Below, in pieces: positions 3,463 to 11,625 of a DNA stretch of 39,446 bases (within the stretch, counting starts at the first letter, position 1; each line of letters starts with the position of its first letter). The notes beneath the pieces are model-generated. The model did not search any database and was not told the origin of the DNA. It saw only the letters and a program-made list of their open reading frames with translations. Position numbers and translations under genes: made by a program. Source of the stretch: Clostridia bacterium. Lineage in GTDB: Bacteria > Bacillota > Clostridia > DUPQ01. Location: NCBI GenBank assembly GCA_016938455.1, contig JAFGUQ010000295.1, forward strand, positions 1-39,446, given 5' to 3'.

Positions 3463-3488
3463 AAAAAGCATCTGTCAAGATGCTTTTT
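3463..3488 (-). terminator. Terminator of the tRNA-His-Gln-Lys cluster
   Basis: An 11-bp inverted repeat aaaaagcatct / agatgcttttt with a 4-nt loop, followed on the minus strand by a long T run. It begins directly at the CCA end of tRNA-Lys. Confidence 0.85.
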
Positions 3489-3563
3489 GGTGAGCCATGA
3501 TGGAATCGAACCATCGACACCATGATTAAAAGTCATGTGCTCTACCAACTGAGCTAATGGCCC
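3488..3563 (-). tRNA. tRNA-Lys (TTT)
   Basis: A 76-nt tRNA with anticodon TTT in the context CATGACTTTTAATCATG. The T-arm is GATGGTTCGATTCCATC and CCA is encoded at 3488-3490. It is the last gene of the His-Gln-Lys cluster and runs straight into the terminator. Confidence 0.96.
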
Positions 3564-3639
3564 TGGCTGGGATGGCAGGATTCGAACCTACGGATGACGG
3601 AGTCAAAGTCCGTTGCCTTACCGACTTGGCTACATCCCA
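3564..3639 (-). tRNA. tRNA-Gln (TTG)
   Basis: A 76-nt tRNA with anticodon TTG in the context CGGACTTTGACTCCG. The acceptor TGGGATG pairs with CATCCCA and CCA is encoded at 3564-3566. It abuts tRNA-Lys with no spacer, so processing must cut exactly between them. Confidence 0.96.
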
Positions 3640-3642
3640 CTG

Positions 3643-3718
3643 TGGGGTGGATAGTGGGTCTCGAACCCACGACATCAAGATCCACAATCTTGCGCTCTAC
3701 CACTGAACTATACCCACC
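3643..3718 (-). tRNA. tRNA-His (GTG)
   Basis: Anticodon GTG in the context CAAGATTGTGGATCTTG. The acceptor extends to eight pairs because a G at -1 (3718) pairs with C73, the identity feature of tRNA-His. CCA is encoded at 3643-3645. It is the first gene of the cluster. Confidence 0.96.
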
Positions 3719-6699: not shown

Positions 6700-9246
6700 C
6701 TAATGTTTGTAATTCAAACCAAAGTATTCATTCAAAATATCCTTTGCAACAGGAGCAGCATATGACCCCCAGACACCGTTTTCAATGACCACTGCAATGG
6801 CGATCTGCGGATTCTCAATTGGTGCATAACAAATGAAAACCGCATTTGAAGACTCATTGGCTTCTCTTCCAGTTTCTGCTGTCCCTGTTTTCCCGGCAAC
6901 AGAGATCGGATAATCATCACCGAAAACAACCTCAGCAGTCCCATCCAGTACAACGCTCGCCATCGCTGTTCTGATGGTTTCAAATGTTTCCTGCGACCAT
7001 GGTACCTGTGTGTACTTCGTTTCACTCTCATACACGGTCTCTCCGCTCTTGCTGACGGCTTTTCCGATGACAAACGGGGTAAGGACCTTACCTCCGTTAG
7101 CAAGCGCCGCAGTATAGACTGTCAGCTGCAGAGGGGTATAACTATGATACAGCTGTCCAATGGAGGACTGGGCAGTATCAGCGGTATACCACTTTTCGAA
7201 TTCCTGTGAATATTTATAGTCCGGGTTTGACCTGATTCCTTTGGATTCACCATATAAATCAATTCCTGTCTTTTCACCTAACCCAAATGCTTTAGCCCAT
7301 TTATCAATGGCATCAATCTTTGTGTCCGTTCCGAGAATATAGAAAAACATATTACAGCTTGTTTTTATCGCTTCGATGACATCAAGATATCCGTGAGTGT
7401 AGTGGTACATGACATATTCAAGGCAGTAGAAATCCCAGTCTCCGATCACCTTATGTCCGGGATCAAATATCAGTGTATCTTTAGTGATGATGTTTTCTTC
7501 AAGACCTGCAATGGCAACGATCGGCTTGAAAGTTGATCCAGGAGTATAGAGCCCTTCAGTGGCTCTGTTGAATAATGATGTCTCTTTGCTTCCTAAAAGC
7601 ACTTCCAGTCTTTTTTGTTTCGAGACTTCATCATTATGAATAAACCAGGACGGATTATATGAAGGAAAGTTAACCATAGTCAGCACTTCTCCTGTATTAA
7701 CATCCATCGCCACTACAGCACCTGCACTGGCATCTGCAAAATTTCTCTTATCTCCAGGTGTTGCTTTTTCTTTAATGATCTCAATGTTCTTTTTCAGAGA
7801 ATCCATAGCGACTTTCTGTAAACTCATATTGATTGTCAGGTAAATATCATTTCCGTCAATGGCTGCTGCCCCGCCCTCAGTGGAAATGATGTTTCCGGAA
7901 GAGTCAGTAATCACATCGGTATAACCGTTTTTCCCTTTTAGTAAATCCTCTGCATAATCTTCAACCCCTGTTTTACCAATCATGCTGTCCGCTTCATATC
8001 CCTTTTCAGTAACATCTTCAGGAGTCACCATTCCGACATACCCAAGCACATGTGCCACATCAACCACATTGCTCGTTTCTCCTGATTCAAGCGGTCCGAT
8101 GACCACGCCTTGAGTTAAAAGTTTGTACCTGTAAATGTCTGATATAGTGGAATTAGTTAAATTCTCTGAAATCAGCAGGTGGTCTCCAGCTATCCAGTTC
8201 TCGCTGTTTATTGCGATTTCATATTTGAGAATCATTATTTTATAGGCTTCCTGCTCTGTGTAGCTTTCATCTATTGAAAAATAGTCTCGCATGAATATAA
8301 AAAATTCTTCAGGATTCATCATGACCTGATTGATTCCAATATGAAATATATGTTTATCTGTCTGCCAGTTGACAATGTCTTCATCAGACAATTCAACTGA
8401 AAAACGCTTTTTCTCAAAATCAAAGTAATCTTTCAGGTGGTTGATATAGGGTTCTTCATTTTTATCCAGAATATTTACTATGGTAAGAAGTGATTGATTC
8501 AGTTCTTCCTCGCTATTATCAATTTTGTTTATGAAAAGATTGAAGTTTTCATCACCATATTGTCTTGATGTAGAAGGGCGAATAATAATTCCCTGAATAA
8601 TATGCTTTTGTTCAGAAACTTCAGCCAGGGTATCTTCAGTGATATTCTTTGAAATCAGAAGGCTTTCACCAGACAGCCAGTACCACCGATTTTTCAGGAT
8701 TTCATATCTGATGATCATTATTTTATAGGCTTCCTGATCTGTATAGCTATCACTGATTGAAAAGAATTTTCTCATGAAAGCGAAAAACTCATCAGGGTTC
8801 AGAATGACCTGGTTATTCTTCAGATTAAACAAGTCCGTATTCATCTGCCAGCTTATGATATCATCATTTGTAAGCTCATCTGAGAACTGCATGTTACCGA
8901 AATCGAAATATGACTCCAGGTGGTTGACATATGTCTCCTTATTATTATCAAGAATCGTCATCAATGCAAGCAGTGATTGATTCAACTCATCTGTCACCTT
9001 ATATGCTCTGCTCAGATACAGGTTGAAACTTTCAGTGTTATAGGCCAGCAAAACACCATTTCGATCATAAATATCTCCTCTGACTGCTTCCACTGTATAG
9101 GTATGAGGAATACTGACCACTGTTTTTGCCACATATTCATCACCATTGATAATCTGCATGATATACAGTTTGGCTACAAACCCAATGACAATGGCAAATA
9201 ATATGATGAAGATGATAAAAAATCTGCCCTTGGAATTATCTTTCAT
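6700..9246 (-). CDS. mrdA: Penicillin-binding protein 2 (class B, elongasome) with internally duplicated pedestal
   Basis: An 848-residue class B transpeptidase that cross-links peptidoglycan during elongation. One membrane anchor lies at residues 9-30, then the pedestal begin motif RGDIYDRNG (56-64). The transpeptidase active site is STFK (Ser571, Lys574), SCN (630-632) and KTGTAE (786-791), all intact. The pedestal is unusual: residues about 73-233 and 234-394 are tandem copies at a constant offset of 161 residues without a gap, roughly half identical by eye (about 76 of 157). This makes the protein about 160 residues longer than a single-copy version. It overlaps mreD by 4 nt, completing an mreBCD-PBP2 elongation operon. 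Also called pbpA in some genomes. Confidence 0.93.
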   Translation of the reverse strand: MKDNSKGRFFIIFIILFAIVIGFVAKLYIMQIINGDEYVAKTVVSIPHTYTVEAVRGDIYDRNGVLLAYNTESFNLYLSRAYKVTDELNQSLLALMTILDNNKETYVNHLESYFDFGNMQFSDELTNDDIISWQMNTDLFNLKNNQVILNPDEFFAFMRKFFSISDSYTDQEAYKIMIIRYEILKNRWYWLSGESLLISKNITEDTLAEVSEQKHIIQGIIIRPSTSRQYGDENFNLFINKIDNSEEELNQSLLTIVNILDKNEEPYINHLKDYFDFEKKRFSVELSDEDIVNWQTDKHIFHIGINQVMMNPEEFFIFMRDYFSIDESYTEQEAYKIMILKYEIAINSENWIAGDHLLISENLTNSTISDIYRYKLLTQGVVIGPLESGETSNVVDVAHVLGYVGMVTPEDVTEKGYEADSMIGKTGVEDYAEDLLKGKNGYTDVITDSSGNIISTEGGAAAIDGNDIYLTINMSLQKVAMDSLKKNIEIIKEKATPGDKRNFADASAGAVVAMDVNTGEVLTMVNFPSYNPSWFIHNDEVSKQKRLEVLLGSKETSLFNRATEGLYTPGSTFKPIVAIAGLEENIITKDTLIFDPGHKVIGDWDFYCLEYVMYHYTHGYLDVIEAIKTSCNMFFYILGTDTKIDAIDKWAKAFGLGEKTGIDLYGESKGIRSNPDYKYSQEFEKWYTADTAQSSIGQLYHSYTPLQLTVYTAALANGGKVLTPFVIGKAVSKSGETVYESETKYTQVPWSQETFETIRTAMASVVLDGTAEVVFGDDYPISVAGKTGTAETGREANESSNAVFICYAPIENPQIAIAVVIENGVWGSYAAPVAKDILNEYFGLNYKH
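8065..9030 (-). repeat. Tandem 483-bp in-frame duplication inside the PBP2 gene
   Basis: Copy A is about 8548-9030 (residues 73-233) and copy B about 8065-8547 (234-394). DNA similarity is also visible: ttttataggcttcctg occurs at 8239-8254 and again at 8722-8737. Motifs ELNQSLL, YFDF, NQV..NP, EFF.FMR and EAYKIMI recur at exactly 161-residue spacing. Confidence 0.9.
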
Positions 9247-9764
9247 CTTATAGCCCCCTTGGTATTTGTCACTTTGGAAACACTGAAAACTGAGATGATA
9301 AAGAATACTAAGCTAATCGCAAAGTAAATGATCCCGCTGATCAGGCTTTCTTTAACAGCAATCATATTGATGATATTGAAGTGAGAAATAATCTGGTGAA
9401 ACGGTATTTCAAAAAACGACTTCATTATTGAAAGTATATAGGTGATAATCACACCATAAACAGAAACATAAATGACATTCTCAATTTTAATGAATGCGCT
9501 GATCATCCAAACGGACAAAACAGCAATGCATAGCACAAGCACATACTGAAAAAACAGATGGGTATAAAGCAGATCATAAGTGAATCCCGCAGCCACTGCA
9601 ATCAATATTGTCTGACTTTTAGTTTTATTTAATGCGGCTAAAATGATGAATATAATGAGAAAATCAGGGCTGACATTTCCAAAGCTGAACCATTCAGCAA
9701 GAAATGGCTGAAAAACCAGAAGAATGATGATTAAAACATAATGGTACCATTTATAAACATACAT
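9243..9764 (-). CDS. mreD: Rod shape-determining protein MreD
   Basis: A 173-residue, very hydrophobic protein with about five membrane segments and no large soluble domain. The central sequence AVAAGFTYDLLYTHLFFQY resembles the MreD signature (AF..GLLLDLL...G). Its position between mreC and PBP2 settles the call. MreD is an inner-membrane part of the elongasome that couples MreB/MreC to PBP2 and RodA. The start overlaps the mreC stop (TGATG) and its stop overlaps the PBP2 start by 4 nt, so the three are translationally coupled. Confidence 0.92.
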   Translation of the reverse strand: MYVYKWYHYVLIIILLVFQPFLAEWFSFGNVSPDFLIIFIILAALNKTKSQTILIAVAAGFTYDLLYTHLFFQYVLVLCIAVLSVWMISAFIKIENVIYVSVYGVIITYILSIMKSFFEIPFHQIISHFNIINMIAVKESLISGIIYFAISLVFFIISVFSVSKVTNTKGAIR

Positions 9765-10603
9765 CAGTTCTTACCCTCTGTCGTCAATAGAAACACTTCA
9801 TTTAATGATTTGATCGGAGCCATCGGTTCAAGATAAGCATATCTTTTTGATAGTGACTCTTCATTGAATACTTCAACAATGGTCCCGACTATAATTCCTT
9901 TGGGATAGATACCGCCAAGTCCTGAAGTTTCCACAATATCTCCTATAGCCACCTCAACATCTTTAGGTATGTTCTCAACAATGCATAAGCCGAATTCTTT
10001 GAGTTCAAGGCTTCCCCGAACAGTAACATGACCGCCTTGTTCACCCTTCATCCATCCACTGATTCCACTGTATTCATCAGTGATTGGAGTGACTGTGGAA
10101 GTGGTAAGGTTCGCAAGATAGACTCTCCCGAACAGAGAGTTATTAGAAGCTACCACAGGATCATCAATCCTGACACCATCTTTTGTGCCTACATCAATAA
10201 GCAATTCATATTTATAATTACTTGGATTAGTGGAAAGGACATTCGCACCGATCAGATTAAACGCGGAGAATTTGTCTTTCAGTAAAAGCGCATCTTTCAG
10301 TCTTTTATTTTCAATTTCCAGATCAGCCACTTCTGCATTTTTTTCTTTCAGACTGTTGATTTCTTTGATCAGCTGTTCGTTTTCCTCAGAAACATATTTA
10401 TAGTCTCTGATTGAATTGAAGAATCTGGAGATGCCTTCATCAGCACTGTTGATTCCTTTTTGTACAAAATTGACAGGAGCAGTGACAATATTTCTGATTA
10501 TGTTGACACTGCTGAACCGATCTATGGAAATCAAAGCAATCACCAGAAACAATAATATCACTGCTGTAATCTGGAATTTTCTATTACGAAACAGATTAAT
10601 CAA
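9764..10603 (-). CDS. mreC: Rod shape-determining protein MreC
   Basis: A 279-residue protein with one membrane segment at about 11-27, a coiled coil at about 70-110 (rich in E, K and L: LIKEINSLKEKNAEVADLEI), then the beta-rich periplasm-side double-barrel domain (LLIDVGTKDGVRIDDPVV; SGLGGIYPKGIIVGTI). MreC is the extracytoplasmic scaffold that activates PBP2. The start is a TTG at 10603 (CAA on the plus strand) with AGGGGAG upstream, so initiation may be weaker than for mreB. It lies 11 nt after mreB. Confidence 0.95.
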   Translation of the reverse strand: MINLFRNRKFQITAVILLFLVIALISIDRFSSVNIIRNIVTAPVNFVQKGINSADEGISRFFNSIRDYKYVSEENEQLIKEINSLKEKNAEVADLEIENKRLKDALLLKDKFSAFNLIGANVLSTNPSNYKYELLIDVGTKDGVRIDDPVVASNNSLFGRVYLANLTTSTVTPITDEYSGISGWMKGEQGGHVTVRGSLELKEFGLCIVENIPKDVEVAIGDIVETSGLGGIYPKGIIVGTIVEVFNEESLSKRYAYLEPMAPIKSLNEVFLLTTEGKN

Positions 10604-10614
10604 AAATCTCCCCT

Positions 10615-11625
10615 TTATCCTCTATTGGCATTCTTAATCAAGTCCAAATTATCTAAAGCAATTCCAGTTCCTTTTGCCACACAATCAAGTGGTTCATCAG
10701 CAATCCTGACATTGATCTTTCCGGTTTTCTCATACAGGAATTTATCCAGCCCCTTGATTAATGCACCACCTCCGGATAGCACAATTCCATTAGTGATGAC
10801 ATCAGCAGCCAGTTCAGGAGGTGTTTTTTCAAGTGTGCTTCTGATCGCTTCATATAACTCATCAACGATATCCTGCATCGCTTCTGCCATTTCATCAGAG
10901 TTGACTGTCAAGTTCACAGGCAACCCCTGAGTCATGTTTCTTCCTCTTATTTCCATTGTCCCAGGGTAATCAGAAGGGTAAACATTTCCAATTGCGATTT
11001 TAAGTTCTTCTGCGGTCCTGTCTCCAATGAATACTCTGTATTTCTTTCTTATATATTTGGCGATAGCTTCATCAAAACTGTCACCGGCATTTCTTAATGT
11101 CGTACTGGTGACGATGCTCCCAAGTGAGATGATTGCCACTTCACTGGTTCCGCCACCGATATCTACTATCATGTTACCGGTCGGTTCCAGTACAGGCAGG
11201 CCGGCTCCAACAGCTGCCATGATTGACTCTTCAGTAATGAATACTTCCTTAGCTCCCGCTTCAAGTCCGGCTTCGATGACTGCCTTCTTTTCAACAGCAG
11301 TAACCCCGGCGGGGACGCAGATGATAATTCTCGGTTTCACTAACTGGAATTTACCTGTCGCTTTTTTTATAAAAGCTTTCAGCATTGCCAGTGTACAGTG
11401 ATAATCAGCAATAACACCTTCTTTCAAAGGTCTTACCGCCCGGATGGTTCCAGGTGTTCTGCCAATCATTTTCTTCGCATCATTACCGACTGCAATCACT
11501 TCTTTTGTTTTCTCATTAATGGCTACAACAGATGGTTCACGGAGAACAATTCCCTTTCCTCTTTCATATATCAAAGTATTTGCTGTACCTAAATCTATTC
11601 CAATGTCTTTACGAAATATTGCCAT
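10615..11625 (-). CDS. mreB: Rod shape-determining actin homologue MreB
   Basis: A 336-residue actin-fold ATPase that forms filaments guiding peptidoglycan synthesis along the cell cylinder. Phosphate-1 motif IGIDLGTANTLIY is near residue 8, phosphate-2 motif MIVDIGGGTSEVAII near 152, and adenosine motif GIVLSGGGALIKGLD near 288. The length is typical. AGGAGG precedes ATG 11625. It heads mreBCD-PBP2, and an extended -10 promoter lies just upstream over the end of radC. Its presence together with ftsZ implies a rod-shaped, walled cell. Confidence 0.97.
   Translation of the reverse strand: MAIFRKDIGIDLGTANTLIYERGKGIVLREPSVVAINEKTKEVIAVGNDAKKMIGRTPGTIRAVRPLKEGVIADYHCTLAMLKAFIKKATGKFQLVKPRIIICVPAGVTAVEKKAVIEAGLEAGAKEVFITEESIMAAVGAGLPVLEPTGNMIVDIGGGTSEVAIISLGSIVTSTTLRNAGDSFDEAIAKYIRKKYRVFIGDRTAEELKIAIGNVYPSDYPGTMEIRGRNMTQGLPVNLTVNSDEMAEAMQDIVDELYEAIRSTLEKTPPELAADVITNGIVLSGGGALIKGLDKFLYEKTGKINVRIADEPLDCVAKGTGIALDNLDLIKNANRG

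Follow-up and report, generated by a model that had tools for sequence, protein, structure and literature searches.

The PBP2 gene (mrdA) on the minus strand at positions 6700 to 9246 of the window, by which we mean the whole 39,446-nucleotide stretch of clostridial DNA analysed here, encodes an 848-residue protein with a doubled head. Two 161-residue units lie head to tail, copy A at residues 73-233 (8548 to 9030, minus strand) and copy B at residues 234-394 (8065 to 8547, minus strand), and direct comparison of the protein with itself confirms that the duplication is real. The unit is the head of the PBP2 pedestal, comprising the whole helical head and its two bordering strands. Apart from this doubled head, the sequence is that of an ordinary Rod-system transpeptidase, PBP2 (MrdA), predicted to be active with RodA and MreC. 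The enzyme itself is known; what appears to be new is the duplication of a full head, and the role of copy B is hypothetical.

The duplicated unit and its gene

Self-comparison at all offsets bore out the original prediction of a gapless duplication at offset 161, with the coordinates of both copies right. The best ungapped segment pairs residues 69-227 with 230-388 at a score of 444, against 39 for the runner-up over all offsets, and the offset-161 self-match stands at z = 20 against shuffles. Aligned without gaps, the copies share 76 identities and 119 positive BLOSUM62 pairs over 161 positions; an earlier count of 76 in 157 thus had the identities right and a denominator that is in practice 161. 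Similarity in the DNA, which had also been claimed, is still visible at 304 of 483 nucleotides (63%), with identities of 65, 78 and 46% at codon positions 1, 2 and 3. The copies are equal in length, with no indel and no stop in an open frame. A profile HMM of the unit finds two full-length matches (206 and 173 bits), and Pfam PBP_dimer (PF03717) matches two stretches within one frame. Neither Tandem Repeats Finder nor an ungapped repeat finder reported the repeat in the window, so it is detectable only in the protein or by direct alignment. It spans the full 161-residue unit and is not a repeat of ~64 residues inside one head.

Assignment of the protein draws on a score of 480.7 bits against the PBP2/MrdA equivalog TIGR03423 (curated cut-off 455), on Pfam Transpeptidase and PBP_dimer matches, and on mreBCD-mrdA synteny. 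The transpeptidase domain (residues 509-838; 6733 to 7722, minus strand) has intact catalytic motifs SxxK (PGS571TFK), SxN (S630-C631-N632) and KTG (K786-T-G), and AlphaFold2 predicts an N-terminal membrane helix at residues 5-33. Motif 1 (RGxIxDRNG, here RGDIYDRNG; residues 56-64; 9055 to 9081, minus strand) is present in one copy, as is the AHVLGYVG segment (residues 398-405; 8032 to 8055, minus strand), which adjoins the end of copy B. Upstream on the same strand lie mreD (9243 to 9764), mreC (9764 to 10603, with a TTG start) and mreB (10615 to 11625). The order Maf-RadC-MreB-MreC-MreD-MrdA-CobO-like-RlmK-like, with names assigned by reading the window's proteins, is common to the window and its congeners, and since it is kept there we regard the window gene as the orthologue of theirs, not a paralogue. 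Amino acid identity between window and congeners is 89-90% for MreB, 72% for RadC, 60-63% for MreC and 42-43% for MreD; within PBP2 it is 71% in the C-terminal part and 48-52% in head copy A. Neither the length nor the divergence of the window's MreC is unusual.

Three further observations concern the gene's surroundings and its catalytic domain. No RodA above the curated cut-off was found in the window's genome, in which two partial SEDS matches at contig ends (G000:C156:3-746 and G000:C5:6-194) may represent fragments of a single gene or of two. The window also carries tRNA clusters at 108-369 (Tyr-Asp-Glu) and 3488-3717 (Lys-Gln-His). In the transpeptidase, D595, C608, H618 and C631 (residues 595-631; window 7354-7464) align with the zinc ligands D515, D528, H538 and C551 of Clostridioides difficile PBP2, and alignment A3 shows no variation at C608, H618 or C631 across its 12 sequences; from this alignment and invariance, a zinc site in which Cys replaces the second Asp is likely.

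Distribution and age of the duplication

The two-head form is known from one genome only, a fragmented draft from an uncultured member of the Clostridia. A single pedestal head between motif 1 and AHxxGY is usual in PBP2/MrdA without defining it, and the window protein departs from this pattern with its two units. All three congeners have one unit each, the gene of one of them being divided over two contigs. In that congener (G003; L036/L037) a contig break cuts PBP2 within the head, between contigs C163 and C71. We considered whether the break conceals a repeat and rejected the idea: the contig ends share exactly 127 bases, a pattern resembling an assembly (graph-branch) break. A family search of 11 genomes in three genera found a unit match in 10 and two full units in one frame only in the window's genome; the order-level search covered the same 11 genomes. 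Across the class, 317 of 391 genomes had a unit match, and 25 besides the window's had two. Each of these 25 was inspected and no second full unit was found in any of them, the double matches being separate genes (G088, G134, G186, G389, G233) or partial repeats within one head. One of these genomes has two PBP2-like genes in tandem, with frames of 833 and 790 residues (L091; G389:C14:81000-86700). A sample of 398 genomes from the phylum gave no further case with this clostridial profile, whose reach outside the class is limited. Among GTDB contigs, an alignment-based scan yielded 80 loci, of which not one carried a full second head, and a scan with a single protein query yielded no matches.

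A single unit in relatives, as originally proposed, therefore held at the levels of genus, family and class, and the survey of relatives, extending to ~390 class genomes and the phylum sample, indicates that PBP2s of this family do not as a rule have the long form. We conclude that the duplication is lineage-specific and that a PBP2 with two full heads is apparently rare, no surveyed relative having a second full unit. In literature outside subscription journals we found no published description of a duplicated pedestal or class B PBP domain.

In a tree of the units, copies A and B join (support 89/84) inside the genus clade (98/96); the end branch of A measures 0.054 and that of B 0.87. Trees that instead place one or the other copy with the congeners survived an AU test (p = 0.28 and 0.17), which leaves room for a duplication before the genus split followed by loss. 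Synonymous divergence is lower between the copies (pS 0.72) than between copy A and the congeners (0.91-0.98), where it is saturated; among congeners it is 0.29-0.52. Four-fold sites are identical at 13 of 21 positions between A and B and at 45 of 145 between the C-terminal parts of the window PBP2 and a congener's (Fisher p = 0.012), a comparison that lends weak support because codon usage shared within one genome inflates the A-B figure (same-codon rate 0.56 observed, 0.45 expected). From these sequence comparisons, the duplication probably took place after the window's lineage had parted from the other congeners sampled, yet it is not recent.

Divergence, predicted structure and role of copy B

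The two copies have diverged unequally. Copy A keeps motif 2, with its Arg/Tyr pair (SRQY, residues 227-230; 8557 to 8568, minus strand), at its end, and the end of copy B carries a degenerate version (LESGETSNV, residues 386-394; 8065 to 8091, minus strand) within a linker predicted to be flexible. R228 and Y230 are invariant in alignment A2 and are the sole invariant columns of a 46-row alignment, lost in B only. Alignment A3 has 18 positions that do not vary among its 11 other sequences; copy A keeps 17 of them and copy B 11. With the conservation threshold set at 70% or more of sequences, the figures are 43/52 and 29/52 (Fisher p = 0.005). Solo changes relative to the congeners number 39 in B and 6 in A, a contrast with p ~ 1e-6 provided that the two copies are sisters. 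Among the residues lost from B are R180 (now K), E212 (R), H215 (L) and both members of the motif 2 pair, R228 (G) and Y230 (T). The hydrophobic first strand (NFNLFI) and the predicted head fold are kept in B, and dN/dS is about 0.16 (interval 0 to 0.30), a rough figure since dS is near saturation.

AlphaFold2 modelled the full-length protein with a mean pLDDT of 84 and a pTM of 0.70. Copy B, with almost no aligned homologues, ranged from about 45 to 88 in this model; its first and last elements are predicted strands, and its exit linker (residues 384-391) falls below 50 and is predicted to be flexible. As the MAFFT full-length alignment had left relatives' heads off copy B, we modelled B alone with 22 unit sequences, which gave a pLDDT of 92.3 and a pTM of 0.87. 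The significant PDB matches of this model are headed by C. difficile PBP2 (E 4e-5), with weaker ones to other class B PBPs, and together with the PF03717 matches this sustains the earlier identification of the unit as PBP2 pedestal. Copy B is thus predicted to fold independently with an intact core. The N-terminal region of Helicobacter pylori PBP2 consists of a helical head, a three-strand anchor and a linker domain (PMC5626683). By analogy to that structure, predicted strands at residues 46-52 (9091 to 9111, minus strand) and at residues 441-447 and 453-460 (7867 to 7926, minus strand) would form the anchor. All three lie outside the repeat, so the window PBP2 would have two heads and one anchor.

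On balance, we think it probable that copy A does the normal job and that copy B is an accessory lobe arising from a tandem duplication of the whole head within the window's lineage. Copy A, which has motif 2 and nearly all the family-invariant residues, would pack on the single anchor and make the normal contacts with MreC and RodA. Copy B would be an extra, independently folding head set between the motif 2 Arg/Tyr and the AHVLGYVG segment, adding surface to the Rod complex that could tune it sterically or provide one more weak contact. It would modulate rather than replace head function, held by purifying selection and serving as neither a second catalytic nor a second clamp unit.

Several other readings have to be weighed against an accessory lobe. 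Copy B could be a near-neutral structural passenger, folded and tolerated but functionless, as its far greater divergence and its presence in one species only might suggest; its exact length, the absence of stops, a dN/dS well below 1 and the predicted intact core make this rather unlikely, although the constraint on B may reflect only the need to fold within an essential protein. A rather doubtful variant is that the second head has acquired a partner surface of its own, either for some other Rod protein or for an additional MreC wing, which would make the enzyme a two-site regulated elongation synthase. It is also possible that B makes a partial contact with MreC. The original prediction raised a second MreC contact, and as a complete clamp this is not encoded: only the head is doubled, and with a single predicted anchor to form the face of the MreC groove opposite the head, a second full clamp is unlikely. 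In its wider form, with two MreC wings per PBP2 or a tighter grip on an MreC filament or oligomer, such a contact would accord with the head fold and NFNLFI strand retained by B and with the use of the PBP2 head by MreC in the H. pylori complex (PMC5626683); we consider it unlikely given the loss from B of R, Y, E and H residues that A keeps and an MreC of unremarkable length and divergence.

The longer pedestal of the original prediction could be an in-line extension: 161 additional residues follow motif 1 ahead of the linker domain and would raise the transpeptidase higher above the membrane, as a thicker or otherwise different wall might require, and the N-terminal region of C. difficile PBP2 is likewise enlarged, by a central helical cluster (PMC9334274). 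An autonomous insert whose two ends are predicted strands and whose exit linker is predicted to be flexible fits a side lobe equally well, however, and the motif 2 kept in A suggests that native packing of A on the anchor was retained; a taller pedestal seems quite improbable. Finally, an assembly or binning artefact fusing two alleles, conceivable in a draft of 301 contigs, is scarcely credible for copies that match at only 63% of their nucleotides, are equal in length, lie in exact register in an open frame, group together in the tree and have syntenic neighbours.

Comparison with known PBP2 proteins

The single-head PBP2/MrdA proteins of the congeners and other Clostridia (L034, L035, L036, L038-L043) resemble the window protein in gene order, motifs and transpeptidase. 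They differ in having one head of ~161 residues, equivalent to copy A, and no copy B, in frames of ~690-740 codons. The H. pylori PBP2:MreC complex (5lp5) has a head and three-strand anchor like those predicted here, with one head only, and MreC slots in between them (PMC5626683). In the current view, activation of RodA-PBP2 comes about when MreC opens this head/anchor groove (PMC5626683, PMC10257715), and a protein with two heads and one anchor would offer a natural test of which head surface counts and of whether an unclamped head is tolerated.

Other enlarged heads are found within the Clostridia. PBP2s from other families of the class (L079, L080, L083, L086) also contain an internal tandem duplication in the same head, the first and second copies matching with an hhalign probability of 97.9 (E 4e-13). 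Unlike the window protein, they repeat only ~64 residues of inner helices inside one head, and the bordering strands remain single. In view of these partial repeats, the full-unit duplication can be seen as a fuller form of a known clostridial habit, and it adds to the evidence that clostridial PBP2 heads grow through internal duplication. C. difficile PBP2 (PDB 7rcw), the top structural match of copy B, has an enlarged head but not a full second one, and its transpeptidase domain contains an insertion that the window PBP2 lacks. Its central helical cluster has been described as an insertion without known homology (PMC9334274). Our unit profile matches 7rcw twice, at chain residues 54-125 and 175-266, covering the overlapping model positions 10-92 and 69-160, which suggests that part of this cluster perhaps derives from head sequence. 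The C. difficile cluster may thus be, in part, a duplicated head segment, and head growth by duplication may explain that part of it.
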